Shown here piece by piece: positions 1,495-58,651 of a stretch of DNA of 59,665 nucleotides (the stretch's first letter is position 1; each line of letters opens with the position of its first letter). The DNA is taken from positions 1-59,665 of IMG/VR virus record IMGVR_UViG_3300042691_008532; one strand, written 5' to 3'. Source of the DNA: a virus. The notes beneath the pieces are model-generated. The model did no database searches. It saw only the letters and a list, made by a program, of their open reading frames with translations, and was not told where the DNA came from. Position numbers and translations under genes: made by a program.

Positions 1495-1496
1495 CC

Positions 1497-1547: not shown

Positions 1548-1568
1548 TAATCAATTAAATCAAATCAA

Positions 1569-8145: not shown

Positions 8146-8478
8146 ATGACAAACAAACAAATCGTTCATATAAGCATGGTTAACTCTTTTAACCTGATAA
8201 CAGAGCGCAACACGTTAGAAGAGATTCAAGAGTCAAACATAACATTATTCGCTCATTCTCCTGAGGATGACATTACATATGAAACTTTAAAGATGATTAT
8301 AGATTACTTTGAATCAATAGAGATGTATGAATATTGTTCTGATTTGATAGAGTATCTCAATCTGAATTTTAAAGAAAACGGTACAAGAATTGGAAGCTGT
8401 GAATGTAAATACCCTGTCATAAAAAGGTACAGCAGGAAAGTGTCCTGCGATTTCTGTAATAAAAGATTATTCTTATGA
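8146..8478 (+). CDS. Hypothetical protein with C-terminal zinc-binding-like cysteines, 110 aa
   Basis: The first ~80 residues are acidic and helical. The last ~25 residues hold CECKYP followed by CDFCNKR, four cysteines in two pairs that would fit a small zinc finger. Its stop overlaps the SF2 helicase start by four bases (ATGA), so it may be a cofactor of that helicase. No named family recognised. Confidence 0.7.
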   Translation: MTNKQIVHISMVNSFNLITERNTLEEIQESNITLFAHSPEDDITYETLKMIIDYFESIEMYEYCSDLIEYLNLNFKENGTRIGSCECKYPVIKRYSRKVSCDFCNKRLFL

Positions 8479-9947
8479 TTGAAAGAAAGTTAGGGCATAC
8501 AAACAAAGAGATGTTACAATACTGTGAAAGAATAAAAAAGATTGTATTATCTAAGACAAAAGTAAAAGTCGGGAAAGGTAAAAATATTGAGTATTGTGAT
8601 ATGTTAAAGTATAAGACTGACGAATCAATTATAAATAATATTATTGAGAGTCATAATTACTACAAAAAACTATACGAAGAAGAAATGAAAGCAGCAGATG
8701 CTCTTACTAATGGAGTCATTCAGTATAGAGATTATCAGAAAGACATCATCAAGGAAGGCGCAAAGATTATCGGTGAGCATGGCTTCTTATATCTTGCGAT
8801 GGAGGTGCGTACCGGTAAGACGCTCACAAGTCTTGGCATTGCTGCGACGATAAAGAGCAACCGTGTGCTGTTCGTTACAAAGAAGAAAGCTATATCAAGC
8901 ATCGAAGCGGACTACGAGAAACTTAATCCTCCATTCGCATTGACGGTCATCAACTACGAGAGCCTTCACTTGGTAATGGATAACGAGAGGTGGGACTTAA
9001 TTATTTGTGATGAAGCACACAGCATGGGCGCATTCCCTAAACCGAGTGGAAGGGCTGAGTTGGTTGCAGAGGTGATAAGAAAGTACAGGCCACGAGTAAT
9101 ACTGTTATCAGGTACACCAACACCGGAGTCGTACTCGCAGATGTATCATCAGGTGTATGCGATACCAAACAATCCGTTCAGGGAGTTCAAAAACTTCTAC
9201 AGGTTTTGCGATAAGTATGTAAACGTAAAACAGCGCAAGATAAACGGCCTGATGGTCAACGATTATAGCAGAGGGCACGACAGTATCCTGAAGCAGATGG
9301 AGCCATTCACGATTAACTATACGCAACAGGAGGCAGGGTTTGTAGCTGAGACAAAGGAAGAAATACTTGAGGTGGAGATGAAAGAATCAACCTATAAGTT
9401 GATTAAAAGACTCAAGAGCGATTTGGTTATTGAAGGAAAAGAGGAGACCATCTTGGCTGACACACCGGTTAAACTAATGATGAAGGTGCATCAACTTTGC
9501 AGCGGAACAATAAAGTTTGAGAGTGGCAACTCAATGATATTGGACTTAAGCAAGGCCGAGTTTATAAAGAGTCGCTTTGCAGGATGCAAGATTGGTATCT
9601 TCTACAAATTCAAAGAAGAATACAATGCACTCAAGCAGGTGTTTGGTGATGAATTAACATCTGATTTAAGTGTCTTTGAAGACACGGACAAAAACATTGC
9701 GCTGCAGATTGTATCGGGTCGTGAAGGTATCAGCTTAAAGCAGGCAGACTATTTGGTGTACTACAACATAGACTTCAGCGCCACGAGTTATTGGCAGAGC
9801 AAGGACCGGATGACAACAAAGGAGCGTCTTGAGAATCAGGTATATTGGATTTTCTCAAAGGGAGGTATCGAGAAGGACATCTACAAGGCTGTCACGAAGA
9901 AGAAAGATTACACAATCAATCATTTTAAAAAAGATTTTTATGAGTAA
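8475..9947 (+). CDS. SF2 (SNF2/DEAH-type) helicase
   Basis: 490 residues with the SF2 motif set: Q-like YRDYQKDII (~77-85), Walker A MEVRTGKT (~109-116), motif Ia-like VLFVTKKKA, motif II CDEAHS (~178-183), motif III SGTPTP (~212-217), motif V-like IVSGREGISLKQAD, and motif VI YWQSKDRM, which has Lys-Asp-Arg in place of the usual QxxGRxxR. The architecture matches phage SNF2-like helicases often placed near VRR-NUC nucleases, as here. It likely remodels replication or recombination intermediates. Palindrome copy 2 lies in its coding sequence at 9670-9685. Confidence 0.85.
   Translation: MIERKLGHTNKEMLQYCERIKKIVLSKTKVKVGKGKNIEYCDMLKYKTDESIINNIIESHNYYKKLYEEEMKAADALTNGVIQYRDYQKDIIKEGAKIIGEHGFLYLAMEVRTGKTLTSLGIAATIKSNRVLFVTKKKAISSIEADYEKLNPPFALTVINYESLHLVMDNERWDLIICDEAHSMGAFPKPSGRAELVAEVIRKYRPRVILLSGTPTPESYSQMYHQVYAIPNNPFREFKNFYRFCDKYVNVKQRKINGLMVNDYSRGHDSILKQMEPFTINYTQQEAGFVAETKEEILEVEMKESTYKLIKRLKSDLVIEGKEETILADTPVKLMMKVHQLCSGTIKFESGNSMILDLSKAEFIKSRFAGCKIGIFYKFKEEYNALKQVFGDELTSDLSVFEDTDKNIALQIVSGREGISLKQADYLVYYNIDFSATSYWQSKDRMTTKERLENQVYWIFSKGGIEKDIYKAVTKKKDYTINHFKKDFYE
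9670..9685 (+). repeat. 16-base palindrome, copy 2 (inside the SF2 helicase gene)
   Basis: GTGTCTTTGAAGACAC. It is the only asymmetric copy whose centre (TTTGAA) is in the opposite orientation to transcription. It encodes part of SVFEDTD, so the reading frame differs from the copies at 16782 and 50983. Confidence 0.9.
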
Positions 9948-10609: not shown

Positions 10610-11023
10610 ATGTTGTTTGAAACTGAAATGGATTTAATTCGAGAGAAGAAAGCGATAGACTTATTCGTGAGCACATTCAATGGTTCGTATCAGAAACTCG
10701 ACCCTTTTGATATTGACTACAAAATATTCGACAAGGATAAGAACCTAATCGCCTACGCAGAAGTGAAGGGCCGGATAAGGACAATGAAGATGGCTTACCC
10801 TCTTCCTGTGTCAGCAAAGAAAGTAGTTAAACTGATGGATAAAAGACTTGAGCCGGTACTCATATGGGCTTGTGATGATGGCATTATTTATGGACGGGTA
10901 ATGAAATTAATTGGAGAAATAAAAAGGGGAGGTCGCCCTCCCCGGATTGGTTCTTTCACGGATGATGAATTGATGGTATATTACGAAAAACAGAAAGGAT
11001 TAAAATACGTTAGGTACGTTTAA
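10610..11023 (+). CDS. Putative PD-(D/E)XK nuclease, 137 aa
   Basis: An N-terminal helix is followed by PFDIDYKIFD, LIAYAEVKGR and a following alpha/beta segment, matching a D-x(n)-E-V-K core of the restriction-endonuclease-like fold. Conserved-looking basic residues follow the core. It is the last plus-strand gene before the convergent late region. Its stop overlaps the stop of the giant minus-strand gene by four bases, and its coding sequence contains the minus-strand terminator. The nuclease call rests on the motif alone; the substrate is unknown. Confidence 0.65.
   Translation: MLFETEMDLIREKKAIDLFVSTFNGSYQKLDPFDIDYKIFDKDKNLIAYAEVKGRIRTMKMAYPLPVSAKKVVKLMDKRLEPVLIWACDDGIIYGRVMKLIGEIKRGGRPPRIGSFTDDELMVYYEKQKGLKYVRYV
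10921..10943 (-). terminator. Intrinsic terminator of the late (minus) operon, inside a plus-strand gene
   Basis: On the minus strand GGGGAGG pairs with CCTCCCC around a GCGA (GNRA) loop, followed by TTTTTATT. It is 77 bases beyond the stop of the giant gene and lies entirely within the coding sequence of the convergent nuclease gene, in-frame as Arg-Gly-Gly-Arg-Pro-Pro. The two convergent transcripts would overlap by about 100 bases. Confidence 0.8.
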
Positions 11024-14000
11024 TCTTCACCGAATTTGCGTGAACCAAATTTATCTTCTGAACTTTTTTTCTTTTTTTCTTGTTCACCAAATCCTTTAGA
11101 ACCAAATCCTGACTCCTCTTTAGGGCTGTAGTTGTACATTCTATCTTTTATCTCACGCTCAAGTTTATCTTGCTTCTTTTTTTCATCACGTTCTTCCTTT
11201 GTATCTTCATAATACTCTGAACCTTCTCCAAAATTTTTCTCATACAACTCAGGGTTGTAGCGTTTTAACTCAGTCTTATTCTCATATCCTCCGAGTAAAT
11301 CTTTTTCCTCATCCTTTTTACGCTTAGATTTTTTTTCAGCTTCTTTTATACTTGAGTAAATTGAATTAACAACTTCTTTTCTAACTTCCTTATACAAAGG
11401 AATTAGTCCTGCATGACCCAACAACTCTAACGGTATCCTTTCTTTTATGACACGGTCTTCTCTTTCTATGGCTTCTGCTTCTTTCTTTTCTGTCTCACCT
11501 GTTATAATTCTTTTTCTATTTTTAAAAATAAGAGCGCCCGTATTCAAAGCAGGAGCCATAGAGCCTCCCATATTCATTAACAATTGACCAAGATTATCAT
11601 CCTTTCTATCGTCTCTTGGAATTAAGGAGTAGGCTATACCATCTTTGTATGGGTCATACTCTCCCTCTCTCAAGAAGTCAAGATAGTTTTCGTTTACCTC
11701 TTCAAGACCATAGTTTACAACCAACTTGGTAGCATTGCCAAAGTCTCTGCCAATTAACAAAGATGAGAATGTACTGAGTAGAGATTGACCAATCTTTTGG
11801 TTCAAAGACTTTTCTGTTTCTTCCTCATCCTCATCATCTCCCATGATACCCATAATACCGTTTGCCAACATCTGAGATAGCAACGTGTAGACTGTCATAC
11901 GTGTGGCTACCGCAGCAAGCATTGCCGCACCTTGTCGCTTAGATAATGAACCGTCTCCAACCATTGCATAAATAGCTGTACGTGCTGTTACATATTCAAA
12001 TATCAAGAACCGGGTCATGTAGTTATTAAAGTTGTTAAACGCTCTCGTAGTTGCACTTTGATTTGGTTTAACTGTTCCCTTCAATATCCCCATGAATGCA
12101 TTATCAGTAGCACCTGTCATTACAGACTTTTGGTCAGCCTCTTTCTTTGCTTGCTCAATAACATCTTTGTTTGCAGACATATAAGCCTCGTCATTCTCTG
12201 CTATCTTTTTAAAGTCAACTTCAGAACCGCTGATTTTTTTAAACGCATTAGCAAATGAACCAAACCACATTGGCCTCATTATAATTTTATCAGGAGTGGA
12301 TATTAAAGCATCTGCAGTTAACTCGATTACGTTTTGATATTTCTTACCGGTCAAGTTCCAAATCTGTTGCATCTTATTATACACCGGATTTTTTGAACTA
12401 CGACCTTGAATGCCGCTTGATTGACTTAATAAAGACGTATCAACAAACTTCCCGGATAAAGTATCTGATGGGAATATTCTATTAGTCTGCTTACTATTTA
12501 CATTCTTCATAATTAATGGAGCATCTGTAGACATGATTATGCCTTTATACTTTACTCCTGTATAGAATGATTTAGGGTCTGCTATTAAAGCAAAGGAAAC
12601 GTTTGACGTTAACTCTGATAAGAATCTTCCTGTGCTTGCAAGAACAGAACGATAACCTTGCTTACTTATAAAATCAATTGCTTGGTCAGTAAGTGAGTTC
12701 TGAAGAATAGAGTTCGTCAAAAGATTGCTAACAGATTCTTCAAATGCATACTCTATTGCATTCTTTACCTCTCTCTGATTTTTTGGAAGTCTACCTTCTG
12801 CCTCCAAATCTTTTGTAACCTGATTGATTGTTCTTCTTGCGGTACGTATTGGTTCAGTCAGATGGTAATCTAACAGCACAAACTTAGCACCACGTTGCGC
12901 TGAAGCAAATACATCAAAGTTCAAAGGCTTTGCACCTTTCGTTCTTGATATTAATGACTTCGCTTTTGTTGATGGTCTTCTTGAATCGTTTGCCTGATTA
13001 AGAAAATCTGTAGCTGCACTTACATCAAGAGGCTCTGTTTCATGCAGCACATTCAAGTGTACGTAATTATTCAATGGGTCTATCGCATCTCCACGAATAA
13101 TAGCAGCAGTATATTGTGCTGTATCTTTTAACGATTCATTTACTTCACGAATATCTTTTATCGCATCCTTCTCTGCTTGATTAAAAGAGTTGTATAATTT
13201 TTCAATGTCGATATTTCCGTCAACAGAATACTTGTCAAGAATTTCCTGCAGCATATTTGCATCACGCTCACCAAACCTTGACTTACCTGCGTCAATATGC
13301 TTGATGGTTTCTTTCAAGTAAGCAGCAGCCGGATTAACCTGTTCGCTTCCTTTGTTTGATTCGTACTCAAGCTGAATCATATAGGTCATCATCTTGAACT
13401 TCGACATCAACGTTGCATCCGGATTAAGTTTGAAAGACTTTGCTACTTTCATTTCTGCATTTTCCAATATAGCTTGAACTCTTTTTAACTCAGACTTAAA
13501 TTTAGCCTCAGCTTCTGCGGCTTGCTCAAACAGTCCATTGAATATTTCTTTTGTTTTAAAGTTTCCGAATACTTGGTCGATATTGTTCAATGGATTTCTT
13601 CTTACCATTTCTGCAATACCACCCTTCTGACTTCTGATTACAGCAGCTTTAAACTTAGAGTAAAGCGCAGAGAACTTTAAAGGATTCGCAGCTTTAATGC
13701 TATTGACAATCCCTTTGCTACGAGGAATTGCATTTATTTTTTCTACCATTACCTGTGCATAATGCGGAAGGTAATTATTGTTGATGTTGTCTGCTACTTT
13801 CAGAAGATTTTTCAAATCAGTCAAATCTAACTTCATTAAAGACGAGCCTGTATTGGTAATTAAATCGGCTAATCTCTTAGCTAAATCACGCTCATCCCTT
13901 GATGGCAATCCATTACCATCAATTATTACTTGCCTTAATGCATCAATATATTCTTTCTTCTTTTCGTTAACTTCTTCTTCTGTTAATGGAGTAGCCTGTA

Positions 14001-17000
14001 CTTGAGGAAGAATATCCTTCTTATACTTTCTAAGCAATTCAGCATCCTCTTCTGTAATCTCTTTCTCACTAAGCATTTTCTTGATAGAGTCTGCATAGTT
14101 CAACTCTCCATCCTCAAACACTTGGTTGTCTGAATTATTAAACATTTCAGCTAACTCATCAACTCTTGATTGCTCGTTGTTGATTTCATTTAAGATGGCA
14201 TCAACATCATTCTTAACAACAGATTTCTCTTCAAGAGTAAGCACCTCTTGTCTTGCAGAGAACATATCAAGCAACTCTAAGTAGCGCTCAAGATATGTAT
14301 CGGGTATCAATTCAGGATTAATTGAAAACAACTTTTGTAATGGCATCATTAAACCATCAGCAATACCAATCTTAGTTGCAATATTTTTTCTCGCCTTCTT
14401 CAATTTGCTTTTTGCAACATTTATTTTATTGTCATAGTCTGCATCAGAGAATACTTTTGCCATGTAGTCAACAAAGTTTGATACAGATATTTCATTCAGC
14501 AGATTAACCTTACCAAATCTTGAAATAATATTAGCCGCTTGAACAGGTGTTATTTTCCCTGTTTTAGCCAAGTCTCTTATTTCTTGAGCCAAGTCCTTTG
14601 CAACATCTCTTGACAGTTCACGAATCCTTGAGATGATTTTCAACTTCTCTGCTCTTGATACGTTTGTAATATCTTTTAATACACCAATCACACGACCAAT
14701 TGATGCGGCTTTCCTTGGACCAACACCCATCTTAATACGTGCTTCACGCTCCATTATTTTACGCTGTGTATCATTCGCATTCTTATAGACATCAGAGTTG
14801 CGAATCATCGTCTCCAAGTTGGAAAGAATTTTCTTGTCATCAATATTTCTTGATTTTTGACGTGCAATTAAAGCATCTGCTTTAGTCATCAATGCATCAT
14901 ATTCAGCTTGTATAGGAAGCATCTGATTGATAGCATTGATACCATTGGTTATGTCTCTTACAGTTACATTGTTATCAGCAGCAGCTTTCTTAATAGCTTC
15001 CTGCAAAGTCATCCCGGCTTGAACCAAAGCCTTTATCGACTTAAGGATAACCTTCATCACAGGCAATGCGATGTTAACACCGAGCGTACCTTTCTCAAAG
15101 TTCTCAATATCTTTAATGAGATTATCAAGACCATCAATTATTTTCTGACCGGTACTTTTATTGTTTGGGTCTAACTGCATCAGTTCGTCCAATGCACCTT
15201 GAACCTCCTCAATCTCCGGCTCAACTTCCGCTTCTGCTTCTTTCTCGACATCTATTTTAGAAAATTCCTCAGGAAGCAAACCGATTTTTTGGTCAGCAAA
15301 AGTAGTCATCTCGTAAATCTGATTAGTTAAAGCAAGAGCCTCTTTAATCTTTCCTTCTTCTCTTAATCTTCTTGCTTCATCTCTCAGTCTATTTGCTTTA
15401 TCATTAACTCCTGAAAAGTTTACGTATGAGTTTTGTCCACGAGTCTCTGTCGTCATTGCTCTTCTTGCTAAAGGAGAGAACATACGAGCATGAACATTCC
15501 ATGCATTCTCTTCTCCCAATGCGCCAAATCCGTTACCTAATTCAGCATGACCAAAGAAGTCGTGAACCGCCCTAAACAAATCATTAACAAGCATAGGTTG
15601 CCCATTAATGTCTGTGAAAGAAGTTTTAGCAAGTAAAGGATTTTCTTTTCTTAATCTTTCAGTAATTTGGGTACTACCGAATCCTGATTCTGTAGAAAAT
15701 ATTTTGATGCGCTTGTTATTTCTCAAGTCATCAATCATCTCCTGAGAGTTAGCGTAAGGCTCTTCGTTGTTTATTTCAATAACATATCCTGCATCTAAGA
15801 ATGCTTTATATTGTTCAATCGTTTCTTTTACCAATGCGCTGTAAGCCTCACGAACTTTAGCGTTATTTGGCGAATGCTTCATAGCCTCAAACGCATCGCT
15901 TATTCTTTTGGCTCTTGCTTTATCGAGTTTCCTTGTCCCTTTGAAAGAAGGTCTTTTAACTCCGAACGCTCTTTGATAATATCTATCCGCAATTTCCGCA
16001 ACTGTCTTGAGGGGCTCGTTAAAGAGTCTGTTTCCGGCTGCAGGTCTTCTTGGCTCAACGCCCGAGTATTCTTCAACTGTTGTTCCTTGGAAGGCTGCAT
16101 CTCTTTGGATTGCCTGCTCAAGGGTCTCACCGAAACCTTTCCCACGAGACTTAAGTCGGGACCCATCGCCTTTAATTCCTCTAATAATTTCCTTCCTTTT
16201 TCCCTTGTCGACATATCTTGATTCTGTTGGCCTGTATTGCTGTTGTTCATAATTTATATTTTTTTCGTCCAATACTCTTACAAAGTTACCGATTTTATCT
16301 TGAAGTTGAGCATCTGCGAAGTCAAGAACGTCAGTAAATGTTACAGTTGCTTCTGTTTCATTTATGCTAAAGTTGTATATACCTGCAGCTTTCAAAGCAT
16401 TAATCGCTTCGTCAACATTGCTTACTTTAAACCGGTACTCGTTTGTATTATGCGTAACGTCTCCCTCGTTAACGTATTGCGCTGCTATAGAAGCCTCTTG
16501 AACTTCAGGTGCAAGTGTTGCTATCATCGCTGCAAACTCTTCAGCTTGGTCTAATGTAGCATCCTCAAAAGTTATCTGATTGGATATTTCAACAATCTCT
16601 TCTCCTGCATCATTTTTATAACCTCCAATCACATCGTCTATTATAATTTTTGGTATTCCGATTTGCTGTGCAAGCTGCACCAATGTCTCTTTGTAAGACT
16701 CGTATTCAGGACTTTGCCTTAACTGCTCGGCCTCTTGAACAGTTTCAATTCGGGTATTGAAGAATGGAGCAATGTTAACTCGTGTCTTTGAAGACACTAC
16801 TTCTTCTTGGACACCTTCTTGGGTAGCGACTTGAGGTTCTGCTTGGGGTTTTCCTTCCTCCATCGTTTCGCTAATTCCGGCTGTTGGCTGAATAGGTACT
16901 TGACCTGTTGTTTGCTTTTGAATGGCATCTTGTTGTATTTTTAATGTTTGTAATTCAGTTTCTAATTCGGTTCTTTTATCAACAGTATATGCTACAGGAT

Positions 17001-19674
17001 TTTCAGGACTAAGCAAATACTCTATTTCGGCAATACGCTTAGTGCGCTGTTCGGTTATATCAGGAGTTTCAATAGTGACTTGCTCTTGAGTCGCATCTTG
17101 GCTTAGTTTATTTAATTGTTCATTAATTTGGTTTATCCTCTCTCTCTGAGGCTTTACCAATGATTCATCCTTCCCTTCTATAGAGGCTTCTATCTCCTTC
17201 CTTTCCCTCAAAAGATTCATGGCCTCTTTCTTCCCGTTGATATTTAACCCCTCAGGAATCGTCCGGAACAAGCCTGCAGACGACCTGTAGTTATTAAGCG
17301 TTTGAGTGGCCTGCTCCATCGTTATCTCACCTGCATTCACCTTGTTTTTAAGGTTAACGATAAAAGCACTTTGAAGGCTTTCATCATTTGCCATTGCTTC
17401 AAACATTAAGAACTGTTCATCAGACATTCCCTTAAAGCCCTTATCCGTGTACGCTTGAGACACAGCAGAAGGTACGCCTAACACAAAACCACCAATAGCT
17501 TCTTGAGCACCGGCCTTTACAATATCAACAACAAATTCTCCAATAGACTCCGGAGTGTTAAACATCTTCATGTATTCTCCGTTAGCATTCTTCTTGTCTT
17601 TTATGATATTGTAAACCTCTTTAATTGTGGTCTCAGATATTTGTTGCGCTGCACCGGTTTCAAATTCAGCAAGACCGGCCGCACTCATTGTAAGTACGCC
17701 ACGAGCAAGCATACTCTCCACATCTTCTCTTACAAATCGAGCAAACGACTTGGCTGTCATGTTTGTTCCCGACCTTGTTAATGCTCTTGCAACAAGACTA
17801 TTAAGCAAACCCTTGCTGCCTATTACATTTCTAAAACCAAACTCTTCCAACACAGCACCGGCAATACCAATCGGAGCAACAACCATGGTTTTCTCATTCT
17901 CAGATACGTCTTTAAAGTCAGAGTCTTCAGCCATCTCTTTAAAGACATTATCTGTAACCTGAGAATACATATTTGCTGTTCGTTGAGCCCAAGCACCACG
18001 ACCCTTAGCTGCTATAATAGCGGGCAAAGACTTTGCCACACCTAAAAATGGACCACCCCAAAAGTCTTGCTCTTTTAATTTTGACCATTGAACGGTAGTA
18101 GAAGCATCGCCTAAAACTTTTCTGTTTGACTCCCGTAGTTGCTGAAGCATACCTTCCGTTCCTTCCTCACCATAAAAGACCCTTTTCTTTCTGTCATCTT
18201 TTTCTTCAGCAAGTAACTTTTCTCTTACATCTTCAGGCAAAGTATAGTACCAATTCTTAAACTGTTCTTTTAATGCGTTTATTTTTTGAACCTGCTTATT
18301 TCTTGCTTCCCTATCTCTATCGGTCTTATTAGGCATTGTCTTTAACTTATCATCCTCTGCCTTTATTGCGTTAGAAATATCCGGAGTTGAATAACCTAAC
18401 TCTTTTGCTCGATTAATAATGAACTCTTGTGCATCAGGGGCTCCAATCTCCACGCTTTCGGGAGTCATATTAATACCAAAATTGGTCCACCTTCTATATC
18501 CACCTGCAACCATCTCTCCAACTCCTTCCAACATAGCATTGGGTATACCTCCAAGCCAACTACCTTGTTTTGATTTTGCTATGGTATATTTACCAACAGC
18601 AACATCCAAGGCTTTTGATTTGGATTGAATAGACTCTTCTTCAGTTAACAGGGAGTTCATTTCCGTAGACAATGCCAATCTCTTTTGTTCCAATTGGGTT
18701 AATTTATTTTGGAACTCAGGAGTGTTTCTTTGTTCAATAGGAGTATTAGCTAATGCAGTTGCTTCTGATTCATACTGCGACTTCTTTACCAAAAACTCTT
18801 TCTGTTTTTTATTCAACGCAAGAGCAAAGTCATTTATTTTTTTAACCTCATCGTCAACCTGCTTCTGCGAGTTGAATTTCTTATCCTGCTCCTTCATTGT
18901 TTTTTCAAGAGCATACAATCTTTTTTGAGGAGTATTTTGCTTGATAAAATCTTGCAACTTCTGAGCCTCATTTGTAGACTTTGCATTTCTGAAATTGTCC
19001 AATGATATTTCTATCACCTTACCGTTAGGAGAAGTTACTTTCATGTAATCACCCAAAGCCCCGGACTCTTCAAATTTGAATCCTAAATCACCAAACTGAT
19101 ATTCCATTTCAGGAACAACATATTCTTCAGTCTTATTGACAAGACCTTTATTAATTGACGACAATCTATCCTTGAGATATTGACTCTCTCCTGCAGTTGG
19201 TTTTACCGGTAACTTATCAAAAATTTCTTCAGCCGCTTTTATCTCAGCAACTATTGGAGCATCCTTCTTAATCTGAGCAATTTTCTTCTCTGCAAATTGA
19301 GGAGTAATTGGCTTTTGTACAAATGAAATGTCAGAACGAATTGGGGCTTGTTTCTGAACAGCTTTTAAACTTATTTTAGGTTTAACCTCTTCAGTTTCTT
19401 GTGGCACCAATCCACCACCGGCCAATGGTAATTCCGTAATACTTTCTTTTTTTTTTGCTTCTTGAGGAATAGCTATTTGAGAAATTGTAGCAGGCTTATA
19501 TGTATTAAAAAAAGTTTCTTTATCCTTAATAGTAAGGCCATCTCTAAGAACAACTTCGTAAACTTTTTCTCTGTACGAATTGTCTTGAGAGTATTGAGTT
19601 TTAAATTCTTCAAATGTTTTATTAGTTTTTCCTTCCCTAATTAAAACGTCATATAACTTCTGTAATTCGTCCAT
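11020..19674 (-). CDS. Giant internal/ejected virion protein, 2884 aa (polyvalent-type)
   Basis: The largest gene and last of the late operon. Residues 3-57 hold two copies of a ~27-residue motif (LYDVLIREGK...FEEFK and VYEVVLRDGL...FFNTY) that I have seen at N-termini of large Bacteroidota phage proteins. Long coiled-coil/Gln-Glu-rich stretches follow. A conserved globular block at ~1270-1460 contains FRAVHDFFGHAELGNGFG (~1366), GEENAW and TETRGQNSYVNFSG; it resembles domains of large phage polyvalent proteins. Hydrophobic segments occur near 600, 740 and 2580 (MLAAVATRMTVYTLLSQM). The tail repeats FGSKGFGE and FGSRKFGE. Likely role: packaged in the capsid and ejected with DNA, forming or crossing the membrane conduit. 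The enzyme activity of the central block is unknown. Confidence 0.75.
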   Translation of the reverse strand: MDELQKLYDVLIREGKTNKTFEEFKTQYSQDNSYREKVYEVVLRDGLTIKDKETFFNTYKPATISQIAIPQEAKKKESITELPLAGGGLVPQETEEVKPKISLKAVQKQAPIRSDISFVQKPITPQFAEKKIAQIKKDAPIVAEIKAAEEIFDKLPVKPTAGESQYLKDRLSSINKGLVNKTEEYVVPEMEYQFGDLGFKFEESGALGDYMKVTSPNGKVIEISLDNFRNAKSTNEAQKLQDFIKQNTPQKRLYALEKTMKEQDKKFNSQKQVDDEVKKINDFALALNKKQKEFLVKKSQYESEATALANTPIEQRNTPEFQNKLTQLEQKRLALSTEMNSLLTEEESIQSKSKALDVAVGKYTIAKSKQGSWLGGIPNAMLEGVGEMVAGGYRRWTNFGINMTPESVEIGAPDAQEFIINRAKELGYSTPDISNAIKAEDDKLKTMPNKTDRDREARNKQVQKINALKEQFKNWYYTLPEDVREKLLAEEKDDRKKRVFYGEEGTEGMLQQLRESNRKVLGDASTTVQWSKLKEQDFWGGPFLGVAKSLPAIIAAKGRGAWAQRTANMYSQVTDNVFKEMAEDSDFKDVSENEKTMVVAPIGIAGAVLEEFGFRNVIGSKGLLNSLVARALTRSGTNMTAKSFARFVREDVESMLARGVLTMSAAGLAEFETGAAQQISETTIKEVYNIIKDKKNANGEYMKMFNTPESIGEFVVDIVKAGAQEAIGGFVLGVPSAVSQAYTDKGFKGMSDEQFLMFEAMANDESLQSAFIVNLKNKVNAGEITMEQATQTLNNYRSSAGLFRTIPEGLNINGKKEAMNLLRERKEIEASIEGKDESLVKPQRERINQINEQLNKLSQDATQEQVTIETPDITEQRTKRIAEIEYLLSPENPVAYTVDKRTELETELQTLKIQQDAIQKQTTGQVPIQPTAGISETMEEGKPQAEPQVATQEGVQEEVVSSKTRVNIAPFFNTRIETVQEAEQLRQSPEYESYKETLVQLAQQIGIPKIIIDDVIGGYKNDAGEEIVEISNQITFEDATLDQAEEFAAMIATLAPEVQEASIAAQYVNEGDVTHNTNEYRFKVSNVDEAINALKAAGIYNFSINETEATVTFTDVLDFADAQLQDKIGNFVRVLDEKNINYEQQQYRPTESRYVDKGKRKEIIRGIKGDGSRLKSRGKGFGETLEQAIQRDAAFQGTTVEEYSGVEPRRPAAGNRLFNEPLKTVAEIADRYYQRAFGVKRPSFKGTRKLDKARAKRISDAFEAMKHSPNNAKVREAYSALVKETIEQYKAFLDAGYVIEINNEEPYANSQEMIDDLRNNKRIKIFSTESGFGSTQITERLRKENPLLAKTSFTDINGQPMLVNDLFRAVHDFFGHAELGNGFGALGEENAWNVHARMFSPLARRAMTTETRGQNSYVNFSGVNDKANRLRDEARRLREEGKIKEALALTNQIYEMTTFADQKIGLLPEEFSKIDVEKEAEAEVEPEIEEVQGALDELMQLDPNNKSTGQKIIDGLDNLIKDIENFEKGTLGVNIALPVMKVILKSIKALVQAGMTLQEAIKKAAADNNVTVRDITNGINAINQMLPIQAEYDALMTKADALIARQKSRNIDDKKILSNLETMIRNSDVYKNANDTQRKIMEREARIKMGVGPRKAASIGRVIGVLKDITNVSRAEKLKIISRIRELSRDVAKDLAQEIRDLAKTGKITPVQAANIISRFGKVNLLNEISVSNFVDYMAKVFSDADYDNKINVAKSKLKKARKNIATKIGIADGLMMPLQKLFSINPELIPDTYLERYLELLDMFSARQEVLTLEEKSVVKNDVDAILNEINNEQSRVDELAEMFNNSDNQVFEDGELNYADSIKKMLSEKEITEEDAELLRKYKKDILPQVQATPLTEEEVNEKKKEYIDALRQVIIDGNGLPSRDERDLAKRLADLITNTGSSLMKLDLTDLKNLLKVADNINNNYLPHYAQVMVEKINAIPRSKGIVNSIKAANPLKFSALYSKFKAAVIRSQKGGIAEMVRRNPLNNIDQVFGNFKTKEIFNGLFEQAAEAEAKFKSELKRVQAILENAEMKVAKSFKLNPDATLMSKFKMMTYMIQLEYESNKGSEQVNPAAAYLKETIKHIDAGKSRFGERDANMLQEILDKYSVDGNIDIEKLYNSFNQAEKDAIKDIREVNESLKDTAQYTAAIIRGDAIDPLNNYVHLNVLHETEPLDVSAATDFLNQANDSRRPSTKAKSLISRTKGAKPLNFDVFASAQRGAKFVLLDYHLTEPIRTARRTINQVTKDLEAEGRLPKNQREVKNAIEYAFEESVSNLLTNSILQNSLTDQAIDFISKQGYRSVLASTGRFLSELTSNVSFALIADPKSFYTGVKYKGIIMSTDAPLIMKNVNSKQTNRIFPSDTLSGKFVDTSLLSQSSGIQGRSSKNPVYNKMQQIWNLTGKKYQNVIELTADALISTPDKIIMRPMWFGSFANAFKKISGSEVDFKKIAENDEAYMSANKDVIEQAKKEADQKSVMTGATDNAFMGILKGTVKPNQSATTRAFNNFNNYMTRFLIFEYVTARTAIYAMVGDGSLSKRQGAAMLAAVATRMTVYTLLSQMLANGIMGIMGDDEDEEETEKSLNQKIGQSLLSTFSSLLIGRDFGNATKLVVNYGLEEVNENYLDFLREGEYDPYKDGIAYSLIPRDDRKDDNLGQLLMNMGGSMAPALNTGALIFKNRKRIITGETEKKEAEAIEREDRVIKERIPLELLGHAGLIPLYKEVRKEVVNSIYSSIKEAEKKSKRKKDEEKDLLGGYENKTELKRYNPELYEKNFGEGSEYYEDTKEERDEKKKQDKLEREIKDRMYNYSPKEESGFGSKGFGEQEKKKKSSEDKFGSRKFGED
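16782..16797 (-). repeat. 16-base palindrome, copy 3 (inside the giant gene)
   Basis: On the transcribed (minus) strand it reads GTGTCTTCAAAGACAC, encoding part of VVSSKTRVN. It has the same orientation relative to transcription as most other copies. Confidence 0.9.
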
Positions 19675-31541: not shown

Positions 31542-31574
31542 AAAAAAAGGAGAGTGTCTTTGAAGACACCCTCC
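31542..31574 (-). terminator. MCP terminator built on the 16-base palindrome (copy 4)
   Basis: On the minus strand GGAGGGTGTCTT pairs with AAGACACTCTCC (12 bp, one G-T) around CA, followed by seven T. The core at 31554-31569 is GTGTCTTCAAAGACAC, identical to the hairpins in front of hammerheads A and B. This is the one copy with a proper T-tract, showing that the palindrome can be used as a 3'-end hairpin. Confidence 0.9.
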
Positions 31575-31592: not shown

Positions 31593-33011
31593 CTATCCAT
31601 AACGGAACAATACAAAGTTGTTTGCACCTAAGGTACATACACAACGCTCAGACAAGAAGTTTACCTCCATTGCATCCAAGTCAGAGTTGTTTGCACCTCC
31701 GGCAGAACCTGTAATCCAAGTCTTATAACGTCTGTCTTCTGCTTCAGAAGCACGATAGCGAACGTGCAAGAAAGGACGCTTGGCGTTCTTGCCAAGGATT
31801 TGGTCGTATACTGAGGTAGAACCTGCAGGAACTAACAAACCGGTAATAGTACCTGTTGCAGTTGCAATTGTAGTATTAAGACCACCACGCATTGTTGGGT
31901 CGTTCAGATATTTCCAATCAGACTTATAAAAGTCATAACCTCTGCGGAAACCTGTGAAACCTAAGTTTAACGCCATGTCAACATCATTGTCAAACAGACC
32001 ATAAGATGCAGCGCCTGCAGCGTTAGCACCATTGTATCCGTTCAAAGTAGCCAACATATTGTCGATGTCAAAACTCAAACCACGGTTTACAAATACAACG
32101 TTTTCTTCGATAGCACCTTGCTTATCCAAACGAGAAACGATAGAATCCCAATCAGACAAACTTGTTGGAGTACCACCGCCCCAAACGTTGCCTCTGTTAT
32201 TTACTACGTAGAATACCCCTTCAGAACCCATCATACCTGCAGTTTTAGCACCTGAACCTACAGCAGCAGGAACAGCTTCAATCATTGCAGTTTCAAGATA
32301 ATCTTCAAAGCGAAGACGAGTTTCGTGCTCTGATTTTAAATACCAAAGATACCCGGTAGCACCGTTTTCTGTGGTTACTTCAACCCAACCAATTTGAGCC
32401 ATGTCAGAACCGTTAACCGCATATTTATCTTTAATGATAATAGGGTTATTTGAGAAAATGTCATCTTCAGCTTCCAAAGAGCCAATCATTCCGTTAGTTC
32501 CTTTTTTAAACTCAGAACCGTAAATGAATACAGTACATTGAGTAGAAACTGCAAAAGCCTGACCACCTGCTTCGTAGAAAGCTACAGTAAAGGTTGTTGC
32601 TGAAGGAACTGCTGTTACGATACCTTTGTTGAACACACCTGAAGTGTTGTTCTGAATCATAACAGTTTGGCCAACACGGATTGCAATGTAAGTCACACCT
32701 GAATCAGCTACAGTAAATGTCGCTGTTGCGGCACCTGCTGCTGCGGCTGATGTACAGTTTGTGTATTTAATATGCAAGCGGCCTTGCTCTGCCCATTTGA
32801 TTTGGTCAGAATTAGAAGGCATCTCTGCTCCTACCATACGTAAAAAAGATGCAATTGTGCGATTACCATAACGCTCAAATTCTTTCTCATAAGTATCAGG
32901 GAGATACTGATTCAAGAAGTTGAAGTTAGTAATGTAGTTTGTTTGTAACGCCACCTGTTCTGCAGAAGGCTGCAGCGCAAAAGTGGGGTTGCTTAAAAGT
33001 GTACCTGCCAT
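31593..33011 (-). CDS. Major capsid protein
   Basis: 472 residues, the size and style of crAss-like major capsid proteins: an N-terminal helical arm (residues 1-70), an Ala/Thr-rich inserted beta domain (~88-165: AAAAGAATATFTVADSG, GQTVMIQNNTSG, TTFTVAFYEAGG), then the HK97-like core with EAEDDIFSNNPIIIKDKYAV, GSDMAQIGWVEV and HETRLRFEDYLE (~230). It is preceded by a scaffold-like acidic protein and followed by a strong terminator, consistent with high expression. The start follows an A-rich leader. Confidence 0.85.
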   Translation of the reverse strand: MAGTLLSNPTFALQPSAEQVALQTNYITNFNFLNQYLPDTYEKEFERYGNRTIASFLRMVGAEMPSNSDQIKWAEQGRLHIKYTNCTSAAAAGAATATFTVADSGVTYIAIRVGQTVMIQNNTSGVFNKGIVTAVPSATTFTVAFYEAGGQAFAVSTQCTVFIYGSEFKKGTNGMIGSLEAEDDIFSNNPIIIKDKYAVNGSDMAQIGWVEVTTENGATGYLWYLKSEHETRLRFEDYLETAMIEAVPAAVGSGAKTAGMMGSEGVFYVVNNRGNVWGGGTPTSLSDWDSIVSRLDKQGAIEENVVFVNRGLSFDIDNMLATLNGYNGANAAGAASYGLFDNDVDMALNLGFTGFRRGYDFYKSDWKYLNDPTMRGGLNTTIATATGTITGLLVPAGSTSVYDQILGKNAKRPFLHVRYRASEAEDRRYKTWITGSAGGANNSDLDAMEVNFLSERCVCTLGANNFVLFRYG

Positions 33012-36625: not shown

Positions 36626-38871
36626 CTGATTAATTGACTTGTGGTTCCATCATTTTTATACTTAGCGAAGTTAATAATTAATTTTGATTCTTTTTTCTCA
36701 GGAACATATAGATGCTTTTGGTTGGCCATTATACACAATCCGGAACTAATTGATGCATCAAAACGAGTTCTATCATTTATATCAAATTTAGCCCAATCCT
36801 CAAGAGTCCTTGTAAAAGGCATTGTTCCCATTTCCTCAGGGTCTCTATACTTCCCTTCCAAGTCTAATCCAATATGCTTCTCAATATAAGATTCGATAGC
36901 AGATGCGTGTGCCTGCTTAACATCTTCTGATGTATTCGGAATACCACCTAACTCACGCTCAGTCTTTGTTAATTTATTAAAAGGTTTATCAGGACGATTA
37001 ATACAGAATCCTCTGTATCCTCTATTCTTGAAATGATAAAGCAACCTTGGCTTATTGTTCTCGGCTAAGATTGGCATACCGTAAAATACACAAGCCATTA
37101 AAACTTCCTCAAAGAATATCTCAGCCGTTTGAGGACGAGCAATGTATTCAAGAAAAAACTGATTAACAGGGGCATCGTCCATGTGAAACTTGGTCATGCC
37201 GTGGAGGGAACCATTTGACCCACGACCACCAACTACGGCTGAAATGTCGTAAGAGTCGCAACCAAAAGAACCAAGATGCTCATTGCCGGGATATTTAATT
37301 CCACTCCTTACGTGTATGTTATTCTGCATATGTTTTGGGGGCGCCCAACTTATACTAAACCGGCCACGATGGTCAGGTGTCCAAATAACCTGCGTGTCTT
37401 TTATACCATCCTTCCAAGAAAATGACCCTCGAGTGATGTATTGCTCCTTAATCATCGAGTCATTATAGTCAATCTGTTGGTATATCTTTGTAAGATTGAA
37501 AAGTGCCTGCTTGCTTTCATCTCTGAATGCATGAGACCTTGTTCTTGGAAACTGACGATAAAACTCGTTTAATGCTTCTGAATCATTCTTCAATGACTCC
37601 ACTTCAGCCTCCCAATAGTCAATAGCCCCATTCTTTATCATTGCCCCATCAATACCAAGAACAGGTGTGTCCGGTTTTCTGAATACAGGGAATCCATATC
37701 TGTCGATAAAGCCCTCCATGTTCCATTCCATTGGGATGAATAAAGAGTAAAGCCCACTTTTTGTCTGACCATTTGCATTACGCTTTTGTACGTTTGATTC
37801 CTCAAACATATCCTTGTAGTTCTGACCTCCCTTTGATAGTGCATTGGAAGTTGAACCCATCATACACTTCCCGATAATTTTGCTACCAATACGAAGACAA
37901 GTCTTGGTCACTCGCCAATTCTCTTTGATGCTTACCGGCTTTGTCCACTTACCACTCTCGTCATGGGCCAAGAATAACAGCTTCTCTCCATCATAAGAGT
38001 TATCCTCCGTGTTCTTCCAATCTATTGTCGTGTCAAGACCATCCACATCATTGTCGTCTGACTCGTACATATTCTTCTTGGTAATCTTGGATGCCGGTAC
38101 CCTGAACGCCAATTCAGTCTTTGGCTTGTCCATACCATCCATGATTGGCTTGAAAAAAAACGGAAGCCTGCTGTTAATTGGAACGACCTTGTCGGTAAAC
38201 ATTTTCTTTGCATCGGCACCGGTCTTTGATAAAATACCTATACGTGCATTCCTTGCAAGAGTACCAATATTGACACACTCAGAAGATGACATAAATGAAA
38301 ATCCGGAACGTCTTATCTTCAGGTATATCATACCAAAAGCCCTTGGGTCAGCACGACAGGCTTCCCAAAATATCCAATAGATTCTGTTGGCCTCACGGAA
38401 GTCAGGATATCCAACGTCAATACTTGCCCACTGCAGGTACATATAGTGAGACCCGGTGATATAGGTCTTGACTCCACAGTTCAGGAACCAATAACCTTCG
38501 TCACGATAGTTGAACTCCTGCTCAATATAGTCTACCCACCGGGCTTTAAATTCTTTTGGCTTATCGTTCCACTGAAATATGGACTGTATCTTGGCCAACT
38601 CTCTTGGAAGTTCCTGTCGCTCCCAATACTGTTCGACCTTGCTTGAGTGTCTTTGATGACACTTTTCGGGCTCAACAGGAAGTGCAATCCTTAGCCCTTC
38701 GATTTCTATTACCTGCCCAATTTGTCCGGTCTTTGAAATGACAATAACATCATATTGGTCATTATACCCATAGAGCCATGACCTCACTCTGTTCTTATTA
38801 GAGATGACGGCTTTGGGTATGTAGTCTACGAGTACCCGGTATAAACTATTGTCTTGACCTTCTTTCTGCAA
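36622..38871 (-). CDS. Terminase large subunit
   Basis: 749 residues. The ATPase domain has a Walker A-like KIRRSGFSF (~184-192), in which the usual G-x-x-G-K-S/T is R-R-S-G-F-S, so the canonical lysine is absent and the arginines may substitute. Walker B LLFLAHDES is at ~297-305 with the catalytic Glu. The RNase H-like nuclease domain starts near FGCDSYDIS (~536-544), which supplies the first catalytic Asp. Downstream HASAIESYIE and a second acidic cluster complete the domain. It packages DNA into the prohead through the portal encoded next. Confidence 0.85.
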   Translation of the reverse strand: MQKEGQDNSLYRVLVDYIPKAVISNKNRVRSWLYGYNDQYDVIVISKTGQIGQVIEIEGLRIALPVEPEKCHQRHSSKVEQYWERQELPRELAKIQSIFQWNDKPKEFKARWVDYIEQEFNYRDEGYWFLNCGVKTYITGSHYMYLQWASIDVGYPDFREANRIYWIFWEACRADPRAFGMIYLKIRRSGFSFMSSSECVNIGTLARNARIGILSKTGADAKKMFTDKVVPINSRLPFFFKPIMDGMDKPKTELAFRVPASKITKKNMYESDDNDVDGLDTTIDWKNTEDNSYDGEKLLFLAHDESGKWTKPVSIKENWRVTKTCLRIGSKIIGKCMMGSTSNALSKGGQNYKDMFEESNVQKRNANGQTKSGLYSLFIPMEWNMEGFIDRYGFPVFRKPDTPVLGIDGAMIKNGAIDYWEAEVESLKNDSEALNEFYRQFPRTRSHAFRDESKQALFNLTKIYQQIDYNDSMIKEQYITRGSFSWKDGIKDTQVIWTPDHRGRFSISWAPPKHMQNNIHVRSGIKYPGNEHLGSFGCDSYDISAVVGGRGSNGSLHGMTKFHMDDAPVNQFFLEYIARPQTAEIFFEEVLMACVFYGMPILAENNKPRLLYHFKNRGYRGFCINRPDKPFNKLTKTERELGGIPNTSEDVKQAHASAIESYIEKHIGLDLEGKYRDPEEMGTMPFTRTLEDWAKFDINDRTRFDASISSGLCIMANQKHLYVPEKKESKLIINFAKYKNDGTTSQLIR
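38647..38662 (-). repeat. 16-base palindrome, copy 5 (one mismatch, inside terL)
   Basis: The minus strand reads GTGTCATCAAAGACAC, one base different from the consensus, in the same orientation relative to transcription as most copies. Confidence 0.7.
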
Positions 38872-50887: not shown

Positions 50888-51223
50888 TTAAATATTTGAA
50901 ACCCTTCTTCCCATTCCGACCCTTGACTTTTCTGCCTTTTTAGCCGCAAGTTTAGAAGGACTTATTTCTGATTTTGTTTTTGGTGTCTTTGAAGACACTC
51001 GCTTTGTTGGCCTGCAGTATTCATTCTTTCCACCGGCACCACACGCTTTACCGGTTCTTGTATCCTGCCACTTCTCTTTCTCCCATCTTTTCAAACTACT
51101 TCCTTCCTCAGATTTGCGAACACTGCCTGATGCCTTCCGGCACTTAGCAATCGCTTGCGAAGCACGAGCCGAAGGGAACACATCATACGATGCTTTGACT
51201 TTTTTGTAGCAAGCGTCTTTCAT
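50888..51223 (-). CDS. DUF5872-like basic protein, 111 aa
   Basis: Starts MKDACYKKVKASYDVFPSAR then QAIAKCRK, the DUF5872-type motif found in many phages and giant viruses. A WQDTRTGKACG segment and a Lys/Ser/Pro-rich tail follow. Likely a small DNA-associated virion protein. Palindrome copy 6 lies in its coding region. Overlaps the next upstream gene by four bases. Confidence 0.7.
   Translation of the reverse strand: MKDACYKKVKASYDVFPSARASQAIAKCRKASGSVRKSEEGSSLKRWEKEKWQDTRTGKACGAGGKNEYCRPTKRVSSKTPKTKSEISPSKLAAKKAEKSRVGMGRRVSNI
50983..50998 (-). repeat. 16-base palindrome, copy 6 (inside the DUF5872-like gene)
   Basis: The minus strand reads GTGTCTTCAAAGACAC, encoding part of RVSSKTP; like copy 3 it encodes Ser-Ser-Lys-Thr. 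Confidence 0.9.
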
Positions 51224-55498: not shown

Positions 55499-55946
55499 AA
55501 AATGATTTTTTAACGTGAAACATAAAGATAAAACTTTTTGAGATACAAGTACTGTTTGGGCTATATAGCGGTTTTGCGTTGCGGTGCTCGGACCGAAAGT
55601 CATTTTTTTTTCGACGGGTGGGGGTGCGTTTCTGAAAATTCCTTCAAACATTTTTGGCGTTTTCCATGGGCTGATATGTGAACGGGGAATAATCTGCCTT
55701 GCATCCTGCTGCTGCTGCTTCGTTTATCGTATGCAATACCCTATCTGCTTTGTTTTGCTTCGCTGCTGCTGCTGCTGCTACATTCTAAATGTGAAAATGT
55801 GTCTTCAAAGACACAGCGCACACCCTGAAAGGGGGCTTTGCCCCTTCTTCGTTCCTCTTAAGTGTAAACATTTTGCTTCCTGTCCTGCTTTATTTTACGA
55901 TTAAAAAACATTTTTTGGACATAATTCAAAAAAACATTGAAAAAAA
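55499..55946. other. Gene-poor region with CTG repeats and hairpins
   Basis: About 450 bases, less AT-rich than its surroundings. It contains two runs of CTG triplets (about 55709-55720 and 55762-55779), palindrome copy 7 (55799-55814) and a GC-rich hairpin GGGGC-TTT-GCCCC (about 55829-55847) followed by a T/C-rich stretch, a possible terminator. The plus-strand ORF over it (55584-55904) is dominated by Cys/Leu runs from the CTG tracts and lacks the usual leader, so I do not call it. A structured RNA is possible. Confidence 0.5.
55799..55814 (+). repeat. 16-base palindrome, copy 7
   Basis: GTGTCTTCAAAGACAC with one extra T-A pair at the base (8-bp arms). Not followed by a hammerhead. It lies 203 bases before the start of the operon that contains the amidoligase. 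Confidence 0.9.
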
Positions 55947-55977
55947 TTTGTTTGCAAAAAGAATTAAACTATATTTG
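55947..55977 (+). promoter_or_regulatory. Bacteroidota-type promoter for the amidoligase operon
   Basis: TTTG at 55947-55950, a 19-base spacer, TATATTTG at 55970-55977, then TACAGAATTTAAA, matching the downstream sequence of the promoter at 2862-2893. It is probably the main early promoter of this segment. Confidence 0.85.
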
Positions 55978-56017
55978 TACAGAATTTAAACGATTAATCA
56001 ACTAAAAATCTACAAAC

Positions 56018-56650
56018 ATGAGTAATCTACTTGCAATTGAGTCAAACTTTTTAAACCTTGCCGAAATTAAGCAAGCGTTAAACCTGACTGAAATCAGGAC
56101 GGTAAGCCGCAATCTTAGCAATGCTAAGAAAAAGAAATTTGAACAGTCTTTAGTCTTATCCAAACTTGTTGTGAAGGCCGTTGAGTGGTTTCACTCAGAA
56201 GAGGGCAAAGCAAAGTGTGCAGAAGAGGGCATTGAGTGGAGCAATGAGGAAATCGGGAACAAAGTATTCGGGTGGCAAAAGTCGTATTTCTACAAAGTAG
56301 TAAAAGCAGGCAAGTTGCCTGAAACAACCGTTGAAACCTTTGTTGCAAAGTGCAATGAAATTGAGGCACAAGGCGAAGAGGCAAACCGTTCCATTGAAGG
56401 TTTATTGAAATTTGCGAAGCAGGTGGAAAGCGCACAAAGCGAAGGTGGACAAGATAGCGAAGATAGCGAAGCAGCGGAAAGCGCACAAGTTGAAACAAGG
56501 GTACAAACCGTTTTTACCATGACTTACAAAACCGATGCAGGTAACGTGTCCGTTCGTGTGGATGCAAACGGCAATGTAAAAACCACTAACACAAGCGAAC
56601 AAATTCAGGCCGCAATTAATTTTCTTACTAACACTTTAAATAAAATCTAA
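56018..56650 (+). CDS. Hypothetical protein, possible DNA-binding regulator, 210 aa
   Basis: The N-terminal ~110 residues are helical and include IEWSNEEIGNKVFGWQKSYF then YKVVKAGKL, compatible with a helix-turn-helix of the type in which 'IG...G.S...Y' spans the turn and recognition helix. An acidic, Ser/Gln/Glu-rich linker (~135-160) leads to a small beta domain (QTVFTMTYKTDAGNVSVRVD). First gene after the promoter; its stop and the amidoligase start overlap as TAATG, so the two are expressed together. The regulator idea is tentative. Confidence 0.65.
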   Translation: MSNLLAIESNFLNLAEIKQALNLTEIRTVSRNLSNAKKKKFEQSLVLSKLVVKAVEWFHSEEGKAKCAEEGIEWSNEEIGNKVFGWQKSYFYKVVKAGKLPETTVETFVAKCNEIEAQGEEANRSIEGLLKFAKQVESAQSEGGQDSEDSEAAESAQVETRVQTVFTMTYKTDAGNVSVRVDANGNVKTTNTSEQIQAAINFLTNTLNKI

Positions 56651-57574: not shown

Positions 57575-57590
57575 GTGTCTTCAAAGACAC
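57575..57590 (+). repeat. 16-base palindrome, copy 8 (hairpin upstream of hammerhead B)
   Basis: GTGTCTTCAAAGACAC, extended to a 10-bp stem by GGG/TCC with one G-T pair (57572-57593). It starts 10 bases after the amidoligase stop and abuts stem III of the hammerhead. Confidence 0.9.
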
Positions 57591-57593
57591 TCC

Positions 57594-57644
57594 GCTGTCT
57601 CAGGGTGTGTGCCCTGACTGATGAGTTCAAAAGAACGAAACAGC
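57594..57644 (+). ncRNA. Type III hammerhead ribozyme B (canonical)
   Basis: Stem III GCTGT (57594-57598) with ACAGC (57640-57644). Cleavage is expected after C57599 (a GUC site). Stem I TCAGGG/CCCTGA (57600-57605 with 57612-57617), loop TGTGTG. Core CTGATGA 57618-57624. Stem II GTTC/GAAC (57625-57628 with 57633-57636), loop AAAA. GAAA 57637-57640. All conserved positions fit, and the whole strongly resembles the satellite tobacco ringspot virus ribozyme in layout. The ATG of the next small gene is 22 bases beyond. Confidence 0.95.
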
Positions 57645-57666
57645 AAACTAATAAAATCAAATTAAA

Positions 57667-58582: not shown

Positions 58583-58598
58583 GTGTCTTTAAAGACAC
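58583..58598 (+). repeat. 16-base palindrome, copy 9 (symmetric; upstream of hammerhead C)
   Basis: GTGTCTTTAAAGACAC, a perfect palindrome. The stem extends outward as GCG/TGC (58580-58582 with 58599-58601), which uses bases that also belong to stem III of hammerhead C, so the two folds compete. Confidence 0.9.
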
Positions 58599-58651
58599 TG
58601 CTGTCCTAAGATGAGTATCTTAGCTGATGAGTTCAAAAGAACGAAACAGTA
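58599..58651 (+). ncRNA. Type III hammerhead ribozyme C
   Basis: Stem III TGCTGT (58599-58604) with ACAGTA (58646-58651, one G-T pair). Cleavage is expected after C58605 (GUC). Stem I CTAAGA/TCTTAG (58606-58611 with 58618-58623), loop TGAGTA. Core CTGATGA 58624-58630. Stem II GTTC/GAAC with loop AAAA (58631-58642). GAAA 58643-58646. Stems I differ in sequence from copies A and B but keep pairing, which is covariation within one genome. Start codon 20 bases beyond. Confidence 0.95.

Follow-up and report, generated by a model that had tools for sequence, protein, structure and literature searches.

A palindrome that changes together with one regulator-like gene points to a genome-wide control system in uncultured aquatic bacteriophages

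Cluster A mycobacteriophages such as L5 and Bxb1 carry many genome-wide copies of a short site, the stoperator, mostly outside promoters, at which their Rep repressor blocks elongation (PMC6550527, PMC9283540). From phage to phage, the stoperator motif varies along with the repressor, and it is preferentially oriented with transcription; the sites are 13-14 bp long, asymmetric and bound by a monomer, and the phages are temperate or extrachromosomally maintained (PMC6550527, PMC9283540). In Bacillus phage SPbeta, a genome-wide repeated element found in promoter regions, SPBRE, is bound by one master repressor, MrpR (YopR), which has a tyrosine-recombinase fold (PMC10516654). Type III hammerhead ribozymes have also been described in phages and viruses, with a halovirus example lying in an intergenic region upstream of a start codon (PMC3088659).

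Our analysis showed that a phage contig of 59,665 bases, here called the window in its full length, and many of its relatives carry a recurrent palindrome whose sites are genome-wide, fixed in place, under nucleotide-level selection within genes and, in genome comparisons, co-changing with a regulator-like gene. This co-change points to a genome-wide system of gene control. The window has about 39% GC and a direct terminal repeat of at least 50 bases. Its genes include those for GroEL, a terminase, a VirE-type primase and a P22-like portal. Among annotated relatives the nearest is the Manatee Spring podovirus MW202828.1, and the closest cultured relatives are Flavobacterium phages of the genus Elemovirus (NC_055853), which share the gene order primase, terminase, portal, GroEL and a size of about 60 kb, but in which no recurrent palindrome was found. 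The group is common in metagenomes, with hundreds of terminase relatives; those in bacterial and archaeal species genomes occur solely in metagenome-assembled bins, and therefore no prophage form was found. As neither an integrase nor a partition gene turned up among those window proteins that were searched, lysogeny is not supported. One terminase 75% identical to that of the window phage lies in a 1-Mb archaeal bin chromosome (CP070801.1; L507, Aenigmatarchaeota bin, 861-883 kb), a placement that is probably a mis-assembly.

Nine palindromes in the window and their fixed places in relatives

A first-pass annotation had described nine copies of one 16-base palindrome in numbers far above chance, and a direct motif search of the window found all nine at their positions. 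The six-base arms are perfect (GTGTCT-N4-AGACAC) in eight of them, the copy at 38647 having a mismatch at arm position 6. The pattern GTGTC-N6-GACAC is found nine times against 0.01 expected, with a maximum of one in 100 dinucleotide shuffles of the window. The copies and the features associated with them are as follows.

1479-1494, plus strand: palindrome, 5' of a hammerhead
1495-1549, plus strand: predicted type III hammerhead ribozyme, upstream of ORF 1569-1895 (Rfam RF00008, 24.7 bits, E 0.0023)
9670-9685, no strand assigned: palindrome within helicase gene 8475-9947, frame 1, encoding SVFEDT; kept in relatives
16782-16797, no strand assigned: palindrome within the gene for a 2884-aa virion-type protein (VSSKT); one copy in the same gene region in relatives
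31549-31574, minus strand: palindrome (31554-31569) at the top of a hairpin that, with the seven T behind it, resembles an intrinsic terminator; located after gene 31593-33011
38647-38662, no strand assigned: palindrome with one mismatch, within the terminase large subunit gene, codons 70-74 (0-based)
50983-50998, no strand assigned: palindrome within gene 50888-51223 (111 aa; VSSKT); kept in 41 of 53 relatives
55799-55814, no strand assigned: palindrome in a divergent spacer, centred about 176 bp upstream of where transcription of the regulator gene is predicted to start
55945-55983 (start approximate), plus strand: predicted Bacteroidota-type promoter of the regulator gene (TTG-N17-21-TAnnTTTG), by pattern match only
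56018-56650, plus strand: candidate trans-acting regulator, 210 aa, first early gene (genome co-occurrence and AF2 model)
57575-57590, plus strand: palindrome, 5' of a hammerhead
57592-57646, plus strand: predicted type III hammerhead ribozyme, core and stems (RF00008, 43.5 bits, E 6.6e-8)
58583-58598, plus strand: palindrome, symmetric TTTAAA form, directly 5' of a hammerhead
58599-58651, plus strand: predicted type III hammerhead ribozyme, core and three stems (I, 8 pairs; II, 4; III, 5)

The various contexts assigned to these copies in the first-pass annotation also hold. The copy at 31554, described as a terminator stem after the major capsid protein gene, tops the sole terminator-like site of its region, just past a capsid-type gene and reading GGAGGGTGTCTTCAAAGACACTCTCC-TTTTTTT on the minus strand; those at 1479, 57575 and 58583 sit 0-7 nt 5' of the three hammerheads; and the four copies in coding regions use three different frames.

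The palindrome is not specific to the window, the conservation check showing that it recurs at the same places in related genomes. A recurrent palindrome is present in 4 to 19 copies per genome across a family of uncultured aquatic bacteriophages. GTGTC-N6-GACAC itself occurs 8 to 19 times per whole record of palindrome-bearing relatives (the reversed control pattern gave zero) and was the top result in 18 genomes of a search for any recurrent inverted repeat. The shared places are terminase codons 70-74, the helicase gene, the 111-aa gene, the capsid-gene terminator, the giant virion-type gene, the divergent spacer of the regulator and the early-gene spacers, and the distance from the terminase copy to the capsid-gene copy is fixed at about 7.1 kb. 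As in a stoperator system, copies of one site are thus dispersed and mostly outside promoters. The divergent-spacer copy is also found in seven relatives (G012, G013, G014, G017, G018, G019 and G047), 146-215 bp upstream of the regulator's predicted start; this distance, together with several leader copies lying downstream of a predicted start, led us to reject promoter overlap as a general rule. Within the site, positions 6, 7, 10 and 11 are variable and the central step is nearly invariant, being a pyrimidine-purine (YR) step (CA/TG, TA or CG) in 257 of 261 distinct copies; in G047, where positions 7 and 10 are loosened, the central step is kept in 12/12 copies.

Some other repeats were set aside: the inverted repeats of G004, G006, G016 and G056 look like chance occurrences, with unique spacers and mostly coding, those of G051 are a coding repeat, and a 12-mer of G068 is a tandem repeat located at contig ends. 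Both ends of the G068 contig (L534, L536-L537) bear tandem 14-16 bp repeats, GGTACGGGTGTACATT.

Within genes, GTGTC..GACAC is present at the terminase position in 67 of 126 distinct terminases. Among 115 assessable conserved codons of these 67, synonymous entropy falls below 0.2 in the five motif codons only, two-fold codons averaging 0.8 and four- and six-fold codons 1.7. As the outer ten bases of the motif served to pick this set, the fair claim is one conditional on protein sequence; the selection leaves untouched only the inner bases and the count conditioned on amino acids. CLQRH could be encoded in 288 ways, and all 60 terminases that have it are coded as in the palindrome, one of them with CTC in place of CTT; in the residues listed for palindrome-free terminases, CLQRH does not appear. 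Similarly, 51 of 59 helicase sequences with SVFEDT and 39 of 40 sequences of the 111-aa gene with VSSKTP are palindromic. In the giant virion-type gene (window 11020-19674), most genomes have VSSKT or VSLKT at the site; G009 has SVFEDT there in another frame, and it is therefore the DNA that is kept, not the peptide. These codon patterns show that the coding-region sites are held by nucleotide-level selection. The giant gene has one palindrome per palindrome-bearing relative examined, in the same region and amid unrelated local sequence.

A gene that comes and goes with the palindrome

When the ORFs of the window were screened, the gene at 56018-56650 was found in 19/19 palindrome-bearing and 0/5 palindrome-lacking genomes. 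The survey was extended to 70 IMG/VR genomes, consisting of the first set and a larger set picked by primase similarity, not by motif. Of these, 39 have both the gene and a recurrent palindrome, 27 have neither, one has the gene only and three have the palindrome only. An initial table had read 37, 30, 1 and 2; it changed when an iterated HMM found the gene in G033 and G068 and when G049 turned out to carry GTGTGTTCGAACACAC. The lone gene-only genome has two palindrome copies. Among the palindrome-only genomes, the contigs of G048 and G049 end before the regulator locus, and G046 has the locus, minus the gene, and four partly decayed copies; in its sister G041, the helicase copy is one base off. 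For twelve of the protein-negative, palindrome-free genomes the survey included a de novo scan and the iterated HMM; for fifteen it covered GTGTC copies and the first HMM only. In independent sister pairs on the primase tree, 7.4 of 9 agree and none disagree (median p 0.016; this test predates two further protein matches); the sisters G014 (13 copies and the gene) and G004 (no copies, no gene) exemplify a joint change. Judged from gene content and motif counts, gene and palindrome have been gained or lost together several times on the tree. An intact helicase palindrome is present in G016 (L249) and in G022 (L269, a partial contig), in neither of which the regulator gene was found; these copies are suggested to be relics or recombinants.

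The product of the gene is predicted to be a DNA-binding helix-turn-helix (HTH) protein, on the basis of its sequence pattern and of an AF2 model (pLDDT 85.8) with HTH helices at residues 76-84 and 88-98 and a C-terminal beta-hairpin/helix; a single-sequence AF2 run (pLDDT 43.5) was left out. The predicted transcription start lies at about 55983. Sequence and fold searches of the PDB gave no significant match, which does not in itself imply a new fold, and Pfam and PHROG yielded no family of known function. There was no ParB, KorB or integrase family match, and no tyrosine-recombinase fold among the fold matches listed. We found no homolog in the phage collection outside MW202828, and the gene is absent from the 84,980 bacterial and archaeal species genomes searched. 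Two further genes with a 19/19 profile, 345-1469 and 56650-57561, were rejected as partners of the palindrome, being missing from five palindrome-bearing genomes and present in the palindrome-less G004. The first is gamma-glutamyl cyclotransferase-like and the second has a weak amidoligase match; they occur in the same set of genomes and are possibly a modification pair.

Regulator-bearing genomes that lack GTGTC copies, in which the protein has diverged, have other recurrent palindromes in a like layout, the difference extending to every copy: GTCTC-N6-GAGAC in G032 (eight copies) and G039 (12), GTCTG-N6-CAGAC in G045 (four), GTCTA-N6-TAGAC in G068 (four), TCCGT-N4-ACGGA in G067 (eight), GTGCA-N6-TGCAC in G035 (four), CGTAT-N5-ATACG in G033 (five) and GTGTCGTTAACGACAC in W01 (14). 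The site motif thus co-varies with the phage's own regulator, as it does for stoperators. The predicted recognition helix reads GWQKS[YF]FYK in most GTGTC genomes, GWNKSYLFK in G032, GWEKAQLHR in G039 and GLSKAQGHK in W01; the tracking is imperfect, since G003, G009, G013 and G037 keep GTGTC despite unusual helices. The clearest case is G032, in which the variant palindrome is found at the places of the terminase, helicase and hammerhead sites and of the capsid-gene terminator, the terminase reading SLQRD for CLQRH and the helicase SLFEET for SVFEDT; the G049 helicase reads SVFEHT. The primase sisters G033 (L511-L513) and G035 (L469-L472) have differing palindromes and strongly diverged regulators, a difference that is perhaps a recent specificity switch.

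Probable DNA operators re-used in RNA hairpins

We consider it probable that the palindromes are dispersed double-stranded DNA operators of the phage's own early regulator (56018-56650), re-used in spacer RNA hairpins. We infer that the protein binds the palindromes and that binding controls transcription. The regulator would bind a GTGTCTTCAAAGACAC-type duplex as its own site, most likely as a dimer with one subunit per GTGTC half-site, and the pyrimidine-purine step would provide a kinkable centre. Since most sites are inside operons and not at promoters, the most likely effect of the bound regulator would be to block elongation within early and late operons in the manner of a stoperator, in addition to limiting transcription from promoters. 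In transcribed spacers, the palindrome would also form part of an RNA hairpin, which would be an intrinsic terminator in some places and in others the 3' hairpin that remains upstream of the cut made by a hammerhead. The number of sites would rise with genome copies during phage replication, and the resulting titration might, speculatively, release the late genes, the blocking of which would need a relief step. An extended version, which we regard as rather doubtful, is that in a strictly lytic lineage one early dimeric regulator acting on operators inside essential genes runs the whole lytic programme: replication would add sites, titrate the regulator and time late expression, operator identity would dictate terminase and helicase amino acids, and spacer operators fused to hairpin-hammerhead modules would cut mRNA at the same points.

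The first-pass annotation had favoured an RNA-level role, with copies oriented with transcription, rather than a DNA operator. The three hammerheads in the window are predicted to be type III ribozymes, with the core CUGANGA...GAAA, three stems and ends open at stem III. Those after the copies at 57575 and 58583 pass a core-plus-stem scan; in Rfam, the scores of 43.5 and 24.7 bits are both below the RF00008 gathering score of 48.5, 58599-58651 has a weak type I match only (18.7 bits), and no match in the window reaches the gathering threshold. The core-and-stem scan showed a hairpin immediately 5' of every hammerhead that it detected, a few of these hairpins lacking the palindrome, and it found no hammerhead in the full protein-negative genomes G004, G006 and G016. 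Early-spacer type III hammerheads with a GC hairpin directly before them are also seen in relatives (G001 34296, G014 20086, G002 55269, G011 58412, G019 24725). At hammerhead-linked copies the stem extends beyond the palindrome with covarying pairs (mean run 3.97), flank pair 2 being paired in 26/30 copies (shuffled 13.6) and pair 4 in 29/30 (shuffled 23.2), and U-tract copies also extend. In the 81 coding copies there is no such extension (mean run 0.48, background 0.61).

As to orientation, seven of eight asymmetric copies in the window are in the TCAA orientation, a weak result (sign test about 0.07), and the copy at 55799 has no defined strand for this count because it lies in a divergent spacer. 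In relatives, TCAA outnumbers TTGA 89:19 on the sense strand of same-strand spacers, a strong preference, and the coding copies stand at 43:28. Divergent or convergent spacers contain both forms, relatives keep the helicase copy in the 'wrong' orientation, and both orientations have been conserved for long times. Tetraloop stability was rejected as the cause of the bias, the predicted hairpin energies being equal.

It could be argued from the covarying flanks, the spacer bias, the hairpin before every hammerhead and the copies of W01 and G039 lying 15-35 nt before start codons that the site is a 16-base mRNA hairpin (GUGUC stem, loop of 4-6 nt), bound by the same or another protein to control translation, processing or RNA stability, with the hammerheads in the same system. 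We think this unlikely as the main function. The coding copies are not extended, both loop orientations are long conserved, copies occur in divergent promoter spacers, the symmetry of the variant palindromes continues across the loop (GTTAAC, TCGA), the centre is YR in 257/261 copies and the partner protein resembles a DNA-binding HTH. These observations, together with the co-change with an HTH-type gene, point to a site in double-stranded DNA that serves a second time in RNA hairpins, and the dismissal of a DNA operator was most likely wrong. The RNA role proposed earlier is, from the stem and loop patterns, real but secondary, in spacers before hammerheads or U-tracts. The simplest reading is of a double-stranded DNA site everywhere that is also part of a hairpin in same-strand spacers. 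Against the operator reading, a symmetric DNA site would not by itself lead one to expect the spacer orientation bias, an intact helicase copy persists in G016 and G022, in neither of which the gene was found, and the tracking by the recognition helix is imperfect.

ParB-parS, RK2 KorB-OB and Noc are systems with partition or chromosome-organising sites. A role of this kind, in which the protein bridges or spreads on phage DNA and regulates no gene, would fit a 16-bp palindrome that spans the genome at fixed places (such as the terminase and capsid-gene copies about 7.1 kb apart) and whose single copy in the giant gene keeps to the same region. This seems quite improbable, given that there is no ParA among the window proteins searched, that the sites of W01, G039 and G033 concentrate in early-gene leaders and that the regulator has no ParB or KorB family match. 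Ordinary hairpins, that is, terminator and 3'-protecting stems sharing one sequence by chance with no trans-acting partner, would account for the good intrinsic terminator at 31554 and for the hammerhead copies being hairpins, but this very improbable reading is already contradicted by the coding copies and the co-variation: identical cores occur in unrelated contexts including frozen codons, they are lost jointly with one gene and change in sequence genome-wide, and palindrome-free hairpins do the same job at some hammerheads. Many identical copies, oriented in spacers, would also be expected of a repeat that moves or is copied and pasted, or of hairpins that act as promoters for an RNA polymerase of the phage; this is just as hard to credit, as the shared sequence ends at 16 bp, copies sit at orthologous codons over about 70-90% protein identity, both orientations are kept, presence follows the HTH gene and the giant proteins yielded no match to a polymerase family.

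Comparison with stoperators, SPBRE and phage hammerheads

Most known dispersed silencing sites are those of temperate phages. The Bacteroidota-type phages studied here, a broad and uncultured family with apparently no lysogeny, seem to run a similar scheme, in which symmetric sites inside essential genes would bend the protein sequence of those genes. The many natural site-protein pairs would be a ready set for working out the recognition rules of a protein family that has no named function. The likeness to stoperators lies in a single dispersed site, mostly outside promoters, whose motif co-varies with the regulator; the resemblance is in how the system would work. Unlike the asymmetric 13-14 bp stoperator, the site is a 16-bp palindrome; it lies at fixed codons in the terminase, helicase and other genes, there is no integrase or parABS among the window proteins searched, and spacers combine the site with hammerheads. 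Set beside the stoperator preference for orientation with transcription, the counts here are 89:19 in same-strand spacers and 43:28 in coding copies, and the copy in the helicase gene is reversed. Compared to SPBRE and MrpR, many sites here are intragenic and the listed matches of the regulator include no tyrosine-recombinase fold. We have not filed the system under either of these because its site is a palindrome and its protein family is unnamed. The hammerheads resemble known phage type III examples (RF00008) in their catalytic core, stems, intergenic location and position upstream of a start codon, but here a hairpin, in most cases with the palindrome in it, stands before each of them, a pairing that we did not find in the literature searched; such operator-hairpin-hammerhead spacers would tie transcription control to RNA cutting at the same positions.
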